Source: Acidimicrobiaceae bacterium (GTDB taxonomy: Bacteria; Actinomycetota; Acidimicrobiia; Acidimicrobiales; RAAP-2). From it: 64,000 nucleotides of DNA. The first letter of the stretch is position 1. Each line of letters opens with the position of its first letter. The position numbers and the translations under genes were made by a program. The notes below the pieces were generated by a model. It was not told the origin of the DNA, ran no database searches, and was given only the letters and a program-made list of their open reading frames with translations. The DNA lies in NCBI GenBank assembly GCA_003133325.1, contig PKXA01000128.1, positions 1-64,000 of the forward strand, written 5' to 3'. Below are positions 8,093 to 26,578 of this stretch, piece after piece.

Positions 8093-10585
8093 TCACTCTT
8101 CGATATTCGTTTCCGTCTCCACCGGGGCCACGGCGGCTACCGCGTCACCGTGGTCGAGGTTCATCACCCGCACGCCGGTGGCGTCGCGACCCTGCGAGGC
8201 GATCTCGCGCACCGGCATCCGGATCACCACGCCGCCCGTCGACACCAGCAGGATTTCATCGTCCAACGCGGCCATGAACGCGGCCACCACTTTCCCGCGC
8301 TTGGCGGTGAGCTTGATCCCCCGCACCCCTTGGCCACCTCGGGCTTGGCGATTGAAGCGCTCCAGTTTTGTGCGTTTGCCGAAACCCGCATCGGTCACCA
8401 GCAGAATGTCGGCGTCGTCACGGGCCACATCACAGGACACGACCTGATCACCCGCCTTCAGCCGGACCCCACGCACTCCGGTGGCGTCGCGGCCCATGGA
8501 CCTCACGTCGTTTTCCGAAAAGCGGATCGTCGTCCCGGACTGGGTCACCAAGAACAGATCGTCGTCACCCCCGGTCTCCACCACCCGTACCAACTCGTCG
8601 CCGTCCCGGAGGTTGATGGCGATGAATCCTTCGCGTCGCGACTTGTCGTACTCGGCGAACGAGGTCTTCTTGATCTGGCCCAGCTTGGTGGAGAACACCA
8701 GAAAGTGATCAGCAGAGAAATCACGGGTGCCGATGACGGCTTGAATCTTCTCGCTCGGCGACAGCGGCAACAGGTTGACGATGGCGGTCCCCCGCGCCGT
8801 GCGCTCCTTCATGGGGATCTCCAGCGCCCGTAGTCGGAAGACGCGGCCGCGGTTGGAGAAGAGCAGCAGATGCGCGTGGGCGGAGGTGTGGACCACATCA
8901 TCGATGAGATCCTCTTCTTTGAGTTTGGCCCCCTTCACACCTCGGCCACCCCTGCCTTGGGTGCGGAACGCGTCGGCCGACATCGCCTTCACGTACCCGG
9001 CCCTACTCATAGTGACGACCAGGTCCTCGTCCTCCACCAGGTCCTCGACGTTCATGTCGCCGGGATCGTGGGTGACAACCGAGCGACGTTCATTGGCGAA
9101 CTTGTCTCGGATCTGGCCCAACTCATCGGCGATTACCGCCCGCAACTTCACCGGATCTCCGAGGATGGCCTCCAACCCGGCAATTTCCAGCAGAAGCTTC
9201 GCCATCTCCTCTTCGAGATTGGATCGACCGAGACGAGTGAGACGAGCAAGCGTCATGTCGAGGATGTGGTTCGCCTGCTCCTCGGAGAACTCGAACGGTG
9301 CCGCCTCCAATGCTGCGAGAGCCGCCGGCCGATCGTCTGATCCCCGAATGGCGGCGATCACCGCATCGAGCATGTCGATGGCCTTCAACAAGCCTTCGAC
9401 CACGTGGGCCCGGGCCTTCGCCTTGTTCAACAGGAATTGCGAGCGGCGGGTGATCACCTCCACCTGATGCGCCACGTAGTGGGTCAGGATCTGGGCCAGG
9501 TTGAGGGTGCGCGGCACCCCGTCCACCAGGGCCACGGCATTGACGCTGAAGGCGGTTTGCAACGGAGTCTGTTTGAACAGATTGTTGAGCACCACGTTGG
9601 CATTGGCATCCCGCTTCAACCGGATGACCAGACTCGTCTTACCGCCGGCCGAATCGTCCTGGAGCTCGGCGATACCGTCGAGATCACCGGCACGGACCAG
9701 GTCCTCGATCTTCTTCGACACCATGGCCACCGAAGTTTGATACGGCATCTCCGAGACCACGATGCGGGTGACCCCGTCGCGGCCTTCCTCGGTTTCGGCC
9801 ACCGCCCGCATCTTGATCGAGCCGCGTCCCGTCCGGAACGCGTCGAGGATGCCTTGGCGACCGAGAATAAGCGCGCCGGTGGGAAAATCCGGGCCCTTGA
9901 CGAACTCCATCAGGTCGTCGGGGGTGGCATCCGGATGCTCGAGGATGTGTTTGGTGGCGTCGATCACCTCACCCAAATTGTGAGGAGGGATGCTGGTGGC
10001 CATTCCCACTGCGATGCCCTGGGAACCGTTGACCAGAATATTGGGGAATCGCGCCGGAAGGACGACCGGCTCTTCGGTGGTGGCGTCGTAGTTGGCGATG
10101 AAATCGACGGTGTCCTGGTCGATACCGGACATCAATTCGAGGGCCAACGAATCGAGCCTGCATTCGGTGTATCGCATGGCGGCCGGGCCTTCGTCCGGAC
10201 CGGTACCGCCGAAGTTGCCGTGGCCGTCGATCAGCGGGTGGCGCATGGAGAACTCTTGAACCATGCGGGCCAGCGCCTCGTAGATGGATGAGTCGCCGTG
10301 GGGGTGGTACGAGCCCATGACGTCGCCCACCACTTTGGCGCACTTGGTATGGGGTCGGTCAGGCCGATGTCCCTGATCGAACATCGAATAGAGGATCCGC
10401 CGGTGAACCGGCTTCAAGCCGTCCCGGACATCAGGCAGTGCCCGCGAAACGATGACCGACATGGAGTACTCGAGAAACGAGCGCTCCATCTCTTCCTGAA
10501 TCTCGATGGGCTCGATGAAGCCCGACACCGCTTCGTCGGTGCCGGTTCCGCTGCCGTCGCTTCCCCTGTTGTCGCGTGCTGCCAT
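8093..10585 (-). CDS. gyrA: DNA gyrase subunit A
   Basis: An 830-residue type IIA topoisomerase subunit that cuts and passes DNA with GyrB. The winged-helix region carries the quinolone-determining stretch [16 protein letters not shown]; Ser is kept at the position equal to E. coli Ser83 and the Asp87 position is Glu. The catalytic Tyr lies in [10 protein letters not shown]. The C-terminal beta-propeller has the GyrA box as QGRGGRG and repeated blades ([22 protein letters not shown]). AAGGACAGGG precedes the ATG. It is 64 bp after gyrB on the same strand, ends shortly before tRNA-Ile, and lacks a long acidic tail. Confidence 0.97.
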
Positions 10586-15366: not shown

Positions 15367-15682
15367 CAAGGAGTCCTTTCTCGGGTTGTTGGTTTCTTGC
15401 TTCTTAAAGACTTAAATTCAAGAGTGGTAGTAATAAGGGCTGTGGATTGTGGATCGGCTGTGGTCGGTGCAGCGTAGGGCACGTTTCTCTTTCCACTGTT
15501 CATCCACTGTTTCCCCACCCACCCACCGATTTGGGAGCCGGAGACCGGAGAGCTATGGACAACCTCGCCTGAACCCACAGGCCAACCACAGGATTGAGCC
15601 CAGGTGTCCACAGGACATCCATACCCGGCCCAAGGCAGAACCGGAGAGATCTCCGAACTGATGGTGTAGTCCGACACCGTGG
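15367..15682. other. oriC: oriC-like region between dnaN and dnaA
   Basis: A 316-bp gene-free stretch. An AT-rich segment at 15392-15436 (CTTAAAGACTTAAATTC) lies next to dnaN and could be the unwinding element. DnaA-box-like 9-mers are TTGTCCATA (minus, 15554-15562) and GTGTCCACA (15604-15612), each 8 of 9 to the actinobacterial TTGTCCACA. Weaker overlapping copies of the ATCCACA core are at 15441-15456, and TCATCCACT is at 15500-15508. The dnaA-dnaN gap is the usual oriC position in Actinobacteria. The strand switch of transcription around dnaA agrees. Confidence 0.75.
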
Positions 15683-17098: not shown

Positions 17099-17456
17099 GT
17101 GGGCCTCCGCCCTTGAGCAGCCAAAATGGTCCACAAGTAAATCCACAGATGTGGATTACCGTCGACCGAGTTTCGATCCATCCTGTTTGGGGAATAAAGC
17201 GGGCCGCTGTGCTTGATTGCTGCATGTCGTTCAATATCGCAGGAAACCACGGCTCTGGCGCTTGGCCCCAACCGGAGTTCTTGCTGTGTTCGGAACGGTA
17301 CACCGTGTACACCGGTTTCGCCGACGAGATGGCCGACTAGAGCGTTGGCCCTGTTCGCGCCTACCATGTGTGGAATTGCCCTAGTCGATGTGACGGGCCC
17401 CCCTGCCGCACTGGACGTCCGAGTCCACGGTTCAGGGCGAGGAAGGAAGTGGAATT
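17099..17456. promoter_or_regulatory. dnaA-rpmH divergent control region with DnaA boxes
   Basis: The 358-bp gap between divergent dnaA and rpmH. DnaA-like boxes are TGGTCCACA (17127-17135), AAATCCACA (17139-17147) and TAATCCACA (minus, 17150-17158). The last two form AATCCACA-GA-TGTGGATT, a perfect inverted repeat at 17140-17157. A second palindrome GTACAC-C-GTGTAC lies at 17298-17310. The boxes fit DnaA autorepression or an origin extension; the second palindrome could be an operator for rpmH or dnaA, which is speculative. Confidence 0.6.
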
Positions 17457-21349: not shown

Positions 21350-21917
21350 GTGTGGGGATCCGGGTGTTCAGTTCCGGCGGCTGTTGTTCCGAGCGTCGAT
21401 TCGGATCCGATGGGGGAGCACGGCACAATGTTTCACGTGGAACGTTTGCCCGTCACTCCCCCATCGACATGTCTGGATTCAAGGGCTGATGAAACCGCCG
21501 AGCCGGCAATCGGCGAAGTTTCAAGAGACTTTCCGAAATCACATGTCGTCCTCGCACCGTGTCTGGATGGGGCGCAGCTGTGCTGATTCTCGGTACGATC
21601 TGGGATATTCCGGTCAGGGCTCGTTTCGGAGGAGGTCCGGGTACCTCTCATCGGGCAGGTCTCCGCGCCGAATCAGTCGGCTACCTGTAGGTCTCTTGCG
21701 GAGGAATCCACTCAGCGGTCACCCGAGTTCCCAACGTCTGCAATTCACGAAAGATGACTTCACAGGTCAGTTCTCGGGTGTGAGCGTCAAAGGTTGGGCG
21801 CGTCCTTCGTTGGAGGCAATTCCCATCGTGGCATCGAAGAAACTGGGCAGTTCATCCAAAGGCTCAGATCGGAGCGTGTCCTGTTGAGTTGGGCCCAGAG
21901 GCTCATCTGATAGACGA
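21350..21917. other. 568-bp gap with parS and decayed DNA
   Basis: No intact gene is seen. It holds one parS-like site (21429-21444). On the minus strand around 21690-21780 a short stretch reads ELTCEVIFRELQTLGTRVTAE, which recalls integrase-type transposases of the IS481/IS3 group. It is broken at once by stops, so at most it is a relic. Frames on the plus strand look like shadows. Confidence 0.35.
21429..21444. promoter_or_regulatory. parS: parS-like centromere site 1
   Basis: TGTTTCACGTGGAACG matches the near-universal parS palindrome TGTTTCACGTGAAACA at 14 of 16 positions. It lies 1.45 kb before parA. ParB binds parS and spreads to form the partition complex. Confidence 0.8.
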
Positions 21918-22620
21918 CAGGTCTCGTGACCAGCGGTTCCTTCGGTCGACAAGCTTGGCCGTGAGCAGACGGACGGCGACCAGGGACAACTGTGCGAGTC
22001 GATGGACACTCCGCCGGTCTGTATTCCTGCGGAGGTCACCGAAGCTGGACGGCCACGAGTTGATCCGCTCCATCGGCCACCGCAGGCCCGTCGGGAGGGC
22101 ATTCTTCGCCCGGGGCGCACCCTTCCTCCGCTTCCTCGCGATGATTGCATGGTCGATGTAGCGCTCGGCGTGGTCGATGGACCACCCGACAGGGATGCCG
22201 TTCAAGTCGGCGAGGACAGACCACCTCTACCCGAGTTTGGCCCGGTCGGTCGAGTTCTTTCCGGTTCTCTCGCCCCCACGAGGGACCTTTGCAAGGATCC
22301 GTCGACCGACAGGTCGGAGAGCTCGAGACCGACGATCTTGGCGTAGGCGTGCAACCCTTCTTCCCCCAACCCGTCGAACGCTCCCGCCTTGATCCGCTCA
22401 CCCCGTCGCAACCGCATTGTGGTATCTGACACCTTGTGACCCGAGAGGCACTCGGTATCCTCCCACGGACACCGAGTGCCCCGGTGGATGTGCATGCCGT
22501 CGAGACAATTCCGATCCCAAGCCCTCGGCCGGTTATGACCGAGAGGGTGGGTTCGGTCAGTAGGCGGGACCAGGGGCGCAACATCAGGCCGGACGGCATC
22601 TCCCACTTCGGTCAAGTGCG
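21918..22620 (-). pseudogene. decayed IS5-type transposase
   Basis: Two minus-strand frames together resemble an IS5/DUF4096-type transposase. The first (from about 22615 to 22202) includes TECLSGHKVSDTTMRLRRGE, then AKIVGLELSDLSVDGSLQ with the first catalytic Asp, then RPTGPNSGR. The second (22205 to 21918) starts NGIPVGWSID and ends GLRWPMERINSWPSSFGDL with RRNTDRRSVHRLAQLSLVAV, the conserved C-terminus. A frameshift near 22200 and a missing middle part between GWSID and the final domain (second Asp region lost) mark it as dead. It sits between the two parS sites. Confidence 0.8.
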
Positions 22621-22789
22621 CACACAATGGTGAGGACCACCACGAGTCATTGCTGGTTGTTGTTGAACATCCCGATTCTCTCGGGTTGAACCCAAGGACT
22701 GTTGGATGTCTTGTTCGCATCTTGGGCCTCAAACCCCCTGGTCAGCACCGTGTCACCTATCCGCGCGGCGTCTCGGTCCAGAGTTGGAG

Positions 22790-22805
22790 TGTTCCACGTG
22801 AAACG
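22790..22805. promoter_or_regulatory. parS: parS-like centromere site 2
   Basis: TGTTCCACGTGAAACG differs from the consensus parS at two positions and mirrors the mismatches of site 1. It lies 78 bp before the parA start, so ParB binding could also influence parAB transcription. Confidence 0.8.
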
Positions 22806-22882
22806 TTCCTCTCGAAAGACTTGACCTACCCCTCAATGAAAGGGAGTATGTGTCCCTTGACCCCTGATGCTCTGAGGAGACG

Positions 22883-24055
22883 ATGATGCGCGGCCGCCGC
22901 AGAGATCGAGACCAGTCAACCCCGCGAGGGATGATGGGACATGCGCCATCGTCGGGAGAGACCGACCAGCAAAAGGCCTTGCCCGAGGACGTACTCCTAT
23001 CGGAAGAGGCATTGCCTGAAGGGGTCGAGACTCGCACAGAGGTTGCGCCACAAGCAGTTCCAACCCCCGTTGCGGAGCCCGGCGGAGTGCCAGCATGGCC
23101 TTCTGGGGAGAAACAACCCGAGTCTGAGCCAGCTGCAGAGATAGCCCCGCCGGCAACCGAACAGCTGGCTGCGAAGGCCGAACCGGCCCTGGTAGAGGCC
23201 TCCCAGACAGTGGGATCTGAGGAGAATGCGGATGCCGAGCCCGTTGAGGTTGCGAACGGCCGTATGGTCCAGGCGGCGTCGGGAAATCCGCTTCCCCGCA
23301 TCCTGGCGATTGCCAACCAGAAGGGTGGTGTAGGCAAGACGACCACGTCGGTCAACCTCGGGGCTGCCTTGGCGGAACTGGGGTTCAGGATTCTGGTGAT
23401 AGACCTCGATCCTCAAGGGAACGCCACTACCGGCTTGGGTATTGATGCTCGGAACTTCGAGCGGTCCATGTACGACGTCTTGATGAGAGACACCTCACTC
23501 GAGGACTGCATCGAACCCACCAGCACCAAGAATCTCTTCGTTGCCCCGTCCACCATCGATCTCGCTGGTGCCGAAATTGAACTCGTGCCGGCATTCAGCC
23601 GTGAAACGAAGCTGAAGCGGGCCATCGAGACGGTGATTGATGACTTCGACTTCATCCTGATCGACTGTCCTCCGTCGTTGGGCCTCATTACGGTGAACGG
23701 ACTTGCCGCTGCCGATGAGGTCCTCGTTCCGGTCCAGTGCGAGTACTACGCCCTCGAGGGTTTGACCCAGCTGATGCGTAATGTGCATCTGGTGGCATCA
23801 AACCTCAATGCCGGGCTCGATGTCTCCACCGTGGTTCTCACTATGTACGACGCACGAACCAAGCTCTCGGACCAGGTAGCCCAAGAGGTCCGCCAGCACT
23901 TCGGCAACAAGGTGTGCCGCAGTGTCATCCCCCGAACGGTGCGTTTATCGGAGGCACCGTCGTTCGGGCAGCCGATCACGGCATTCGACCCGACGTCCCG
24001 TGGGGCGATCGCATATCGGGAACTAGCTAAGGAGGTCAGCGGTGGCGCGTCGTAG
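22883..24055 (+). CDS. parA: chromosome partitioning ATPase ParA (Soj-like) with long N-terminal extension
   Basis: A 390-residue protein. The ATPase domain starts near residue 137: deviant Walker A NQKGGVGKTTTSVNLGAAL, Walker A' VIDLDPQGNATTGLG, Walker B FDFILIDCPPSLGLITV, and the DNA-binding/dimer region SVIPRTVRLSEAPSFG. The first 135 residues are acidic, rich in Glu, Pro and Ala, and probably disordered, much longer than usual Soj N-termini. GAGGAGA lies just before the first ATG. ParA moves ParB-parS complexes on the nucleoid. parB overlaps its end by 14 bases. Confidence 0.93.
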   Translation: MMRGRRRDRDQSTPRGMMGHAPSSGETDQQKALPEDVLLSEEALPEGVETRTEVAPQAVPTPVAEPGGVPAWPSGEKQPESEPAAEIAPPATEQLAAKAEPALVEASQTVGSEENADAEPVEVANGRMVQAASGNPLPRILAIANQKGGVGKTTTSVNLGAALAELGFRILVIDLDPQGNATTGLGIDARNFERSMYDVLMRDTSLEDCIEPTSTKNLFVAPSTIDLAGAEIELVPAFSRETKLKRAIETVIDDFDFILIDCPPSLGLITVNGLAAADEVLVPVQCEYYALEGLTQLMRNVHLVASNLNAGLDVSTVVLTMYDARTKLSDQVAQEVRQHFGNKVCRSVIPRTVRLSEAPSFGQPITAFDPTSRGAIAYRELAKEVSGGAS

Positions 24056-24995
24056 TGGATTGGGAAAAGGACTCGGTGCGCTGATCCCGACCGAGGTTGT
24101 GAGCGACCGTTCATCGTCGCTGCGAGAAGTTCCTCTCGGTAGCATCAAGCCGAACCCGCTTCAGCCCAGAGTTCAATTCGACGAGGACACCATGTCTGCG
24201 CTGGCTGCATCGATCAAGGAGCTCGGCATCTTGCAGCCGGTTCTGGTGCGCGAGGTGTCCGGAGGTGGGCCTGACCAGTTCGAGTTGATTGCCGGAGAAC
24301 GTCGCTGGAGAGCTGCCCGGCGAGCCGGTCTGCAGACGATCCCGGTCCTGGTTCAGACATCGAACGAGGCCCACAGCCTCGAGCAGGCATTGGTAGAGAA
24401 TCTCCACCGACAGGATCTCAACGCGTTGGAGGAGTCAGCCGCCTATCAGCAGTTGATCGAGGACTTCGACTATACCCACGACCAGGTGGCAACCAGGGTG
24501 GGAAAGAGCCGGACGGCAGTGACCAATACCCTCCGGTTGTTGCACCTACCGGCGGCAGTCCAACGCTTGTTGATCGAGGGACAGATCAGTGCCGGTCACG
24601 CCAGGGCCCTGTTGGGAACACCGGATCGGGCGTATCAGGAGTCACTGGCAAAATTGATCGTGATCGACAGCTTGAACGTGCGGGCGGTCGAGGTGCTGGT
24701 GAGAGAGCGGTCAGGATCCGACGAGCCACGCGAAGCCGCAGAAGGCGCCCCCAAAGGCAAGGCGGGCGCCACCAAGGGCGGTGCAAAGCCAGATTCGGCG
24801 GAGCAGAGGCGCCTGCCTCCTCCGGGGATTCTCGAATTGGAAGAGTTGCTCTCTGCCCACCTGAACACCCGGGTCAAAGTGGAAATGACTGCGAAGCGGG
24901 GGAGAGTGGCAGTCGAGTTCGCCACCCTCGAAGACCTCGAGCGAATCTATAAGCTGATGGTTGGTTCCCAGGACGACAGTGGAATCTCCGGGTGA
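24042..24995 (+). CDS. parB: chromosome partitioning CTPase/DNA clamp ParB
   Basis: A 317-residue ParB. The N-terminal ParA-stimulating segment is RRSGLGKGLGALIP. The CTP-binding domain contains PLGSIKPNPLQPR, then GILQPVLVR and the GERRWRAARRAG motif, with ENLHRQDLNALEES. The HTH follows (THDQVATRVGKSRTAVTNTL, ISAGHARALL). A flexible Ala/Gly/Lys linker (about 225-255) leads to the C-terminal dimerisation domain (LEELLSAHLNTRVKVEM). It loads at the two parS sites nearby. GTG start inside the end of parA implies coupled translation. Confidence 0.95.
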   Translation: MARRSGLGKGLGALIPTEVVSDRSSSLREVPLGSIKPNPLQPRVQFDEDTMSALAASIKELGILQPVLVREVSGGGPDQFELIAGERRWRAARRAGLQTIPVLVQTSNEAHSLEQALVENLHRQDLNALEESAAYQQLIEDFDYTHDQVATRVGKSRTAVTNTLRLLHLPAAVQRLLIEGQISAGHARALLGTPDRAYQESLAKLIVIDSLNVRAVEVLVRERSGSDEPREAAEGAPKGKAGATKGGAKPDSAEQRRLPPPGILELEELLSAHLNTRVKVEMTAKRGRVAVEFATLEDLERIYKLMVGSQDDSGISG

Positions 24996-25090
24996 AAGCT
25001 CACGCAGAGTGGTAATACTTGACATAATGACGTGAACTAGAGGGTTATGGCTACTCAAAGTGGGATTCTAGCCTTAACCCTCAGTTGAAC

Positions 25091-25124
25091 TTCATCCACA
25101 ACCTGTGGATGAAGTTGTGGATTA
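25091..25124. promoter_or_regulatory. DnaA-box palindrome cluster downstream of parB
   Basis: TTCATCCACA-ACC-TGTGGATGAA is a perfect 10-bp inverted repeat (25091-25113) that contains two convergent boxes TCATCCACA, each 8 of 9 to TTATCCACA. A third box TAATCCACA on the minus strand lies at 25116-25124. The surrounding 211-bp gap between parB and the minus-strand cwlM gene is AT-richer and otherwise gene-free. A T-run is lacking, so a simple terminator is less likely, although the convergent genes would need one. Confidence 0.5.
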
Positions 25125-25206
25125 TGGTGACGACAGATCTGACGTTGAGGTCGACAGTCGTCGGATTGCCCGAGGCGCGTGGGTTGTCCCCCTGCCTGCC
25201 CGTGGC

Positions 25207-26196
25207 TCAATCCCAGGGAGTATCGACCCACTCGGTGAGGGCCTCGACGATCACCCGGGCCAAGGTGGGGGTCTGTTCGACAACCACCGAGGCCGGACCG
25301 ATCTCACAGATCACCGCCGGCATCCGGGTTTCACGGAGGACGGGCAGGGACATACCGCGACTGCCTCCATCGGCCACGCCGAGTTTGGCCGGTAGGGTGC
25401 TCTGGAGTAACTCGGCCAGCCGTCGCCCTCCCAGGGAGGAGTAGCGGTAGCCGGTGTAGTACGCCGTCGAACAGTGTCGCTTGGTGGCATCCAGCCGCAG
25501 TCCTACGTATACCTCGGCGTGACCAGCGTTGGCCTCTGAGGCCTGAATGGAGCCGTCAGGATGGTGATGGGTCGTCACCAGCGCGCTGCGGCCCACCAGT
25601 AGTCGCCTGAGTGCTCCCACCGCGGCGTCGAGGCCGCCTTCTTCACCGATTGCCACCCGCCGCCCGGCCAACGTTCGGGGCGCCTGGCGAAGCAGTTCCC
25701 GGTCCCGAACCGAGCTCACCAGCTCGCTGCCGTCGTGGCGGGATCCGCACCGGAGCAGCTCGGCGACGGTGGAAGCCCCGACGATCCCGTCGACCGGGAG
25801 ACCGACGTTCCGCTGGAAGTCACCCAGACCCGCAGAGGTGAGGTCACCGAGGATGCCGTCCACTCGCCCGGTATCGAACCCGAGGGCACTCAAGCGCTGC
25901 TGCAGCTCCGCCACGTCGTCACCCCGAAGCATCGGGGTCCTCCGGTAGAGAAGCCGATCTCCCAGGCGTCGCCCGGCTTCCACCAGGGCCGACCAGGTCT
26001 GCCGGCCACAGATGCCATCGACCCGCAGGCCGCGGCGGTATTGGAAGGCCTCGACGGCCGTCCGGGTGCCGCGTCCGAAAGAGCCTGCGGTGTCGAGCCC
26101 GATCGACAAACCCAATGCCCCAAGACGATGTTGCACATCGGCGACGGCCGGGCCGGCGTCGCCGACAGCCAGGTGAATGGAAGGAGCCGCGCTCAC
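25207..26196 (-). CDS. cwlM: CwlM-like protein: peptidoglycan-binding domains plus degenerate amidase_3
   Basis: A 329-residue protein. Two PG_binding_1 repeats come first: VGDAGPAVADVQHRLGALGL with RVDGICGRQTWSAL, then RGDDVAELQQRLSALGFDTG with PVDGIVGASTVAEL. An amidase_3-like domain (about 175-329) ends RMPAVICEIGPAS. The zinc-binding His positions of active amidases seem lost: the LDPGHGG-type motif reads AIGEEGGLDAA and the SIHxNA-type motif reads VGLRLDATKRH. Only the last Glu is kept. There is no signal peptide. Mycobacterial CwlM at the same locus is a cytoplasmic regulator of MurA, so a similar role is inferred. The GTG start at 26196 is uncertain. Confidence 0.8.
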   Translation of the reverse strand: MSAAPSIHLAVGDAGPAVADVQHRLGALGLSIGLDTAGSFGRGTRTAVEAFQYRRGLRVDGICGRQTWSALVEAGRRLGDRLLYRRTPMLRGDDVAELQQRLSALGFDTGRVDGILGDLTSAGLGDFQRNVGLPVDGIVGASTVAELLRCGSRHDGSELVSSVRDRELLRQAPRTLAGRRVAIGEEGGLDAAVGALRRLLVGRSALVTTHHHPDGSIQASEANAGHAEVYVGLRLDATKRHCSTAYYTGYRYSSLGGRRLAELLQSTLPAKLGVADGGSRGMSLPVLRETRMPAVICEIGPASVVVEQTPTLARVIVEALTEWVDTPWD

Positions 26197-26251
26197 GCTG
26201 GGGTTACCGGCGGAGTAACCGTCGAAGCGGCCCTTTCGGGGGCGAAACCCC

Positions 26252-26578
26252 CTAGAGGTGGGCAGCCAACTCCTGGAGGAGCTGACCCTTGCCCTTGGCT
26301 CCCACGATGCGGGCCGCCGGCTGGCCATCCTTGAAGAGGATGAGGGTGGGGATGCTCATCACATCGAACCTGCGGGTGATGTCGAGGTTGTCGTCGATGT
26401 TCAGCTTGGCGATGTTCAGCTTGCCCGCCTGCTCGGTGGCGATCTCTTCGAGCACCGGAGCGATCATTTTGCACGGGCCACACCATTCGGCCCAGAAGTC
26501 CACCAGGACAGGAATGTCTGAGGACTTGACATGCTCATCAAAACTAGCGTCGCTCAGCGTGGTGATCGTATCGCTCAT
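26252..26578 (-). CDS. trxA: thioredoxin
   Basis: A 108-residue thioredoxin with active site FWAEWCGPCKMIAP and the cis-Pro motif MSIPTLILFKDGQ. Cytosolic disulfide reductant fed by the thioredoxin reductase encoded immediately upstream. A weak hairpin (TTTCG/CGAAA around 26236-26250) lies after its stop. Confidence 0.96.
   Translation of the reverse strand: MSDTITTLSDASFDEHVKSSDIPVLVDFWAEWCGPCKMIAPVLEEIATEQAGKLNIAKLNIDDNLDITRRFDVMSIPTLILFKDGQPAARIVGAKGKGQLLQELAAHL

Follow-up and report, generated by a model that had tools for sequence, protein, structure and literature searches.

A conserved array of three DnaA-type boxes downstream of parB in Acidimicrobiales, a probable origin-proximal DnaA-binding control site

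In the intergenic gap downstream of parB in this Acidimicrobiaceae genome, three DnaA-type boxes make up a 33-bp array that is under strong selection while its surroundings drift. Comparison of the sequences suggests, with a probability of roughly three in four, that in most of the Acidimicrobiales sampled this module serves, near the origin but outside oriC, as a control site to which DnaA binds; the binding itself is very likely. The window, i.e. the whole stretch of DNA analysed, comprises 64,000 nucleotides of a fragmented source assembly of 133 contigs. To our knowledge, little is known of DnaA control outside oriC in Actinobacteriota, and a search of the open-licence PMC literature found no DnaA site downstream of parB for this group.

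The gap spans 211 bp (24996–25206) between parB (24042–24995, forward strand) and a convergent cwlM-like gene (25207–26328, reverse strand) whose name is taken from the initial annotation. It had been described as a gene-free and AT-richer interval, and both its bounds and its composition bear this out: its GC content is 52%, compared with 61% for parB, 68% for cwlM and 64% for the whole window. Box 1 (TCATCCACA, 25092–25100, forward strand), the middle box 2 (TCATCCACA, 25104–25112, reverse strand) and box 3 (TAATCCACA, 25116–25124, reverse strand) each match TTATCCACA at 8/9 positions, in agreement with the earlier report of two convergent boxes and a third. Together they form the arrangement box(+)-ACC-box(-)-AGT-box(-) with an exact 12-bp pitch (25092–25124, forward strand; R1 model match 40.2 bits), directly downstream of parB and about 8 kb from dnaA. 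Since the window holds nine such boxes compared with 4.46 expected, three inside 33 bp are beyond chance, and the site has the several close, clustered box matches that define a DnaA-box cluster. A scan of the 64 kb for three-box arrays in 303 overlapping 420-nt segments gave only two sites above the threshold, the present array and another upstream of dnaA.

The module is present downstream of parB in all 90 scored genomes of the window's family (Acidimicrobiaceae-like; scored from 143 genomes with a parB match) and in 87 of 105 scored genomes outside it, covering 49 of the 57 other families of Acidimicrobiales, which indicates conservation under selection. The latter sample consists of parB-downstream DNA from 105 of 108 genomes; outside it stand G090 and G197, both of which carry the module (L148 and L149), and G087, in which parB was matched in part only. 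Other orders of the class keep parA-parB and mostly the cwlM-trxA neighbours, but among the best-scoring 30 of 39 parB-bearing genomes (from 40 searched) none of the 30 gaps was positive, the profile score being at most -14 and the three-box score at most 2.09. Since the same gene neighbourhood lacks it there, the module is a trait of the order Acidimicrobiales.

A DNA search with a 236-nt gap query matched 39 of 100 relatives, and past the closest congeners the matches shrank to at most ∼80 nt, mostly at query positions 93–146, which comprise the boxes and some flank. A 35-column profile scored above 12 in 111 of the 118 gaps of a first set, from which L022 (parB not located), L077 (contig ends) and L140 (the same genome as L086) had been dropped beforehand, and in 39 of the 77 gaps of a second, more distant set; single-base shuffles of the first set reached at most -5.5. 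A looser three-box test, allowing the order (+)(-)(-) or (+)(+)(-) and pitches of 10–13 bp with a threshold of 2.30, was passed by 117/118 gaps of the first set and 60/77 of the second, by 0/385 shuffles and by none of 110 fragments of parB coding sequence used as a control. The latter replaced an earlier control set (29/232 passing), which was discarded as contaminated, since the module itself might lie in many of its pieces. When the pitch was left free between 9 and 18 bp, 108 of the 117 first-set gaps that had passed settled on 12/12, as did 33 of the second set.

By the three-box score 18 of the 105 genomes outside the family are without the module, so that, as far as these gaps can tell, it is not indispensable. 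Every scored member of f29 (three), f34, f56 and f35 (two each) lacks it, as does the only scored member of each of f5, f42, f54 and f60. The f60 genome (G208) carries a module beside cwlM on another contig, though it is missing from the parB gap. An R1 search of 16 genomes lacking the module at parB revealed no general second home; the best match in G231 lies just upstream of dnaA and, beyond this genome and G208, matches were weak or absent.

The consensus module is TNATCCACA-ACC-TGTGCATGA-GGT-TGTGGATTA, i.e. box(+)-ACC-box(-)-GGT-box(-). Over 111 modules the 33-column core carries 1.36 bits per base compared with 0.19 and 0.07 in the two 40-nt flanks; within the core the middle box is highest (1.59), followed by box 3 (1.40), box 1 (1.32) and the spacers (1.02). 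The TCCACA core is found in the outer boxes only in 62/111 modules and in the middle box only in 21/111, the latter being typical of genus g9, as in L102 (TTATCCCCA-AGT-TGTGGATGA-AGT-TGTGGGTTA); in most relatives outside g9 the middle box is TCATGCACA. The entire module has the opposite orientation in 12 of the 118 gaps (genera g5, g10, g12, g19 and g21; families f11 and f61).

The initial annotation centred on a perfect 10-bp inverted repeat. The repeat is indeed perfect and is longer than claimed, with 13-bp arms (25088–25100 and 25104–25116) and a 3-nt spacer. However, a comparison of the parB–cwlM gaps of relatives, as had been proposed, shows that it is lineage-specific: within the genus only the window species and a single congener, two genomes out of five, have it perfect. 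The middle box of this genus is TGTGGATGA in L029 and L030 and TGTGTATGA or TGTGCATGA in L031, L035 and L024, and the perfect palindrome of the window thus results from the middle box having become TGTGGATGA. The palindrome was therefore rejected as the conserved unit; the conserved symmetry is that of box 1 with box 3.

Some short words recur around the module. CTCAACC (CCCTCAACC-type repeats) is present in 24/111 upstream flanks compared with 0.3 in shuffles (e.g. L126, L137 and L109) and GTTGAGG in 16/111 downstream flanks compared with 0.2. At the parB end of the gap, CAC-N3/4-RAGTG motifs occur in 17/120 gaps (in the window at 25000–25035; also in L034, L036, L042, L053 and L134), and some relatives have a TGACATAA word there, GACATAA being found in 15/111 upstream flanks compared with 0.5 in shuffles.

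The convergence of parB and cwlM would suit a bidirectional terminator, with the box arms forming an RNA hairpin on both strands. The hairpin predicted for the window species is strong (46 nt, -18.6 kcal/mol, z -4.2), as is that of L039, although in L057 it is weak, with 19/200 shuffles folding as well. Conservation of pairing alone, with compensatory changes, had been named beforehand as the mark of such a terminator. The sequences do not show pairing as the only thing conserved. Across 48 distinct sequences, 77.6% of the cells in the outer-arm helix are paired compared with 77.1% after shuffling (173/500 as high), 12/48 rows lack the pair at columns 8/28 and 11/48 that at columns 12/24, and it is the hairpin `loop' that is best conserved, its TGTG being invariant in 48/48. 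A weak covariation score (0.149 compared with 0.125 shuffled, 15/500 as high) and an excess of cells changed on both sides (27 compared with 16.8, 5/500 as high) do favour a hairpin; this weak covariation may reflect relatedness or a drift of the two boxes towards one shared box variant. There is no U tract, a search of 24800–25500 found no terminator-like site (a GC-rich hairpin with a T run), an Rfam search of the site gave no match at E values up to 1, and nothing similar occurs between the same convergent genes in the gaps scored from other orders. Reversal of the module alters the RNA loop but leaves the set of boxes unchanged. Because the loop is the best-conserved part and several lineages carry the whole module reversed, the module is probably not accounted for by a terminator or another RNA element; as its sole cause a terminator or RNA hairpin was rejected, given the loop conservation, the shuffle-like pairing and the lack of terminator sites and Rfam matches, and the terminator explanation is highly unlikely. 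A better terminator candidate lies just upstream of the module, where a separate imperfect inverted repeat (25027–25095; 27-nt arms, 74% complementary), the 3′ arm of which shares 4 nt with box 1, could form a parB-side RNA hairpin.

The second site found in the scan is a sister three-box module upstream of dnaA (17127–17158, reverse strand), with an 11/12-bp pitch in the direction of dnaA. Among 30 genomes, a three-box array precedes dnaA in 28, 16 at a pitch of 11/12 and six at 12/12 in (+)(-)(-) order, which upholds the likeness to the dnaA-upstream layout that had been noticed earlier. The two sites share the (+)(-)(-) array and the type of box; they differ in that the dnaA-upstream array mostly has the 11/12-bp pitch and adjoins the start of dnaA, whereas the parB-gap module has 12/12. 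The profile also locates the module in the rpmH–dnaA gap of f102, a different family of the same phylum. Arrays of the parB-gap kind therefore occur at dnaA as well.

The f102 pattern beside dnaA could be taken to favour a second origin, or part of a split oriC, at which DNA is unwound in the parB gap. The basal unwinding system of oriC, as outlined in PMC8287927, consists of two DnaA boxes followed by DnaA-trios; the parB-gap site resembles this description in that adjacent boxes are separated by no more than 3 bp, and differs in being without trios, which lie in the dnaA–dnaN gap instead. With trio-like repeats defined as two or more copies of [CT]TA no further than 22 nt from a CCACA, they were found in 22 of 30 dnaA–dnaN stretches of the order, in none of 30 dnaA-upstream stretches and in none of 118 parB gaps. 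In the window, a DnaA box CAATCCACA followed by GCCC and the trio-like TTATTACTA in the dnaA–dnaN gap (15426–15449, reverse strand) is the likely unwinding site of oriC. The absence of trio-like repeats from all 118 parB gaps led to the rejection of an unwinding origin there, and the reversals of the module also speak against it; such an origin is very unlikely. The GC skew of the window was too noisy for placement of the origin.

Domain IV of the source-genome DnaA is standard and aligns well to solved domain IV structures, with GGRDHSTV aligned to GGRDHTTV of 1j1v. From known DnaA biology, three DnaA protomers would be expected to bind the module side by side and cooperatively, as in a small orisome, with two strong boxes anchoring one weak box and the reverse in genus g9. 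Because it is without DnaA-trio repeats the site should not unwind DNA, and it would therefore act by retaining DnaA near the origin, in the replication start region beside the parAB/parS locus. It might in this way be a dose or timing sensor for DnaA, either through titration or as a switch read by the segregation machinery, and the analysis leans about equally towards titration or timing and towards a segregation switch. The initial annotation had proposed a DnaA-box site near the origin with three possible roles; conservation strongly supports a selected site, although the palindrome is not its conserved unit and the sequence does not choose among the three roles.

A site of the datA or DARS type has an IHF or equivalent partner site and affects the nucleotide state of DnaA. 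A datA-like titration or inactivation site may be tentatively proposed for the module, as this needs only early replication: strong boxes clustered near the origin would be doubled soon after initiation, and the module has no fixed orientation. It has only three boxes, however, and no IHF-type partner site was identified in it. The likeness to datA and DARS of Escherichia coli (partly described in PMC4585315) is a descriptive one; these are also conserved, intergenic DnaA-box clusters outside oriC, whereas the parB-gap site has three boxes only, lies close to the origin and has no known IHF site.

The other role, somewhat more doubtful, is a switch like that of Caulobacter, in which DnaA near the centromere starts or licenses ParB–parS origin segregation. 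According to a review (PMC6399470), DnaA of C. crescentus binds parS about 8 kb from Cori (Mera et al., 2014, cited therein), and at low levels it moves the centromere in the absence of replication. In the window, too, the boxes belong to a parABS neighbourhood and are about 8 kb away from the origin; the module adjoins parB, with parS-like sites 2.3 and 3.6 kb away. In contrast to the Caulobacter boxes described in that source, the module lies downstream of parB in a fixed 33-bp three-box array, with the parS-like sites 2–4 kb off. Its boxes do not lie at parS itself: the gap has no parS-like site with up to three mismatches, the nearest being at 22790. Moreover, the conserved gene order makes nearness to parB uninformative and the link to parB inseparable from mere closeness to the origin. 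A bolder form of this idea, a three-protomer switch with interchangeable weak and strong boxes at an exact 12-bp pitch, in which a dedicated landing site beside parB would let DnaA license origin segregation and which would have evolved in the whole order independently of Caulobacter, is rather unlikely. Being short, fixed in position throughout an order and sharply present or absent from one order to the next, the module is a clean target for testing whether the control of DnaA is coupled to ParABS segregation at this site.

The two parS-like sites of the window (21429 and 22790, two mismatches each) lie near both ends of a stretch of about 1.5 kb without an evident gene between rsmG and parA (21350–22882). 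Two parS sites occupy like places in L231, and in L238, a g9 relative, five perfect parS sites, four of them spaced 109–111 bp apart, lie upstream of parB (8477–9147).

Within the class, L172 and L176, and also L174, L175 and L177, have a second three-box array, after which come TTACA-like and GTGTNAT-like words; its pattern has no match in the window's genome. Its neighbours are a thiolase and a DUF881 gene in L172, a thiolase and a glutamine amidotransferase in L176 and a PASTA protein in L175.
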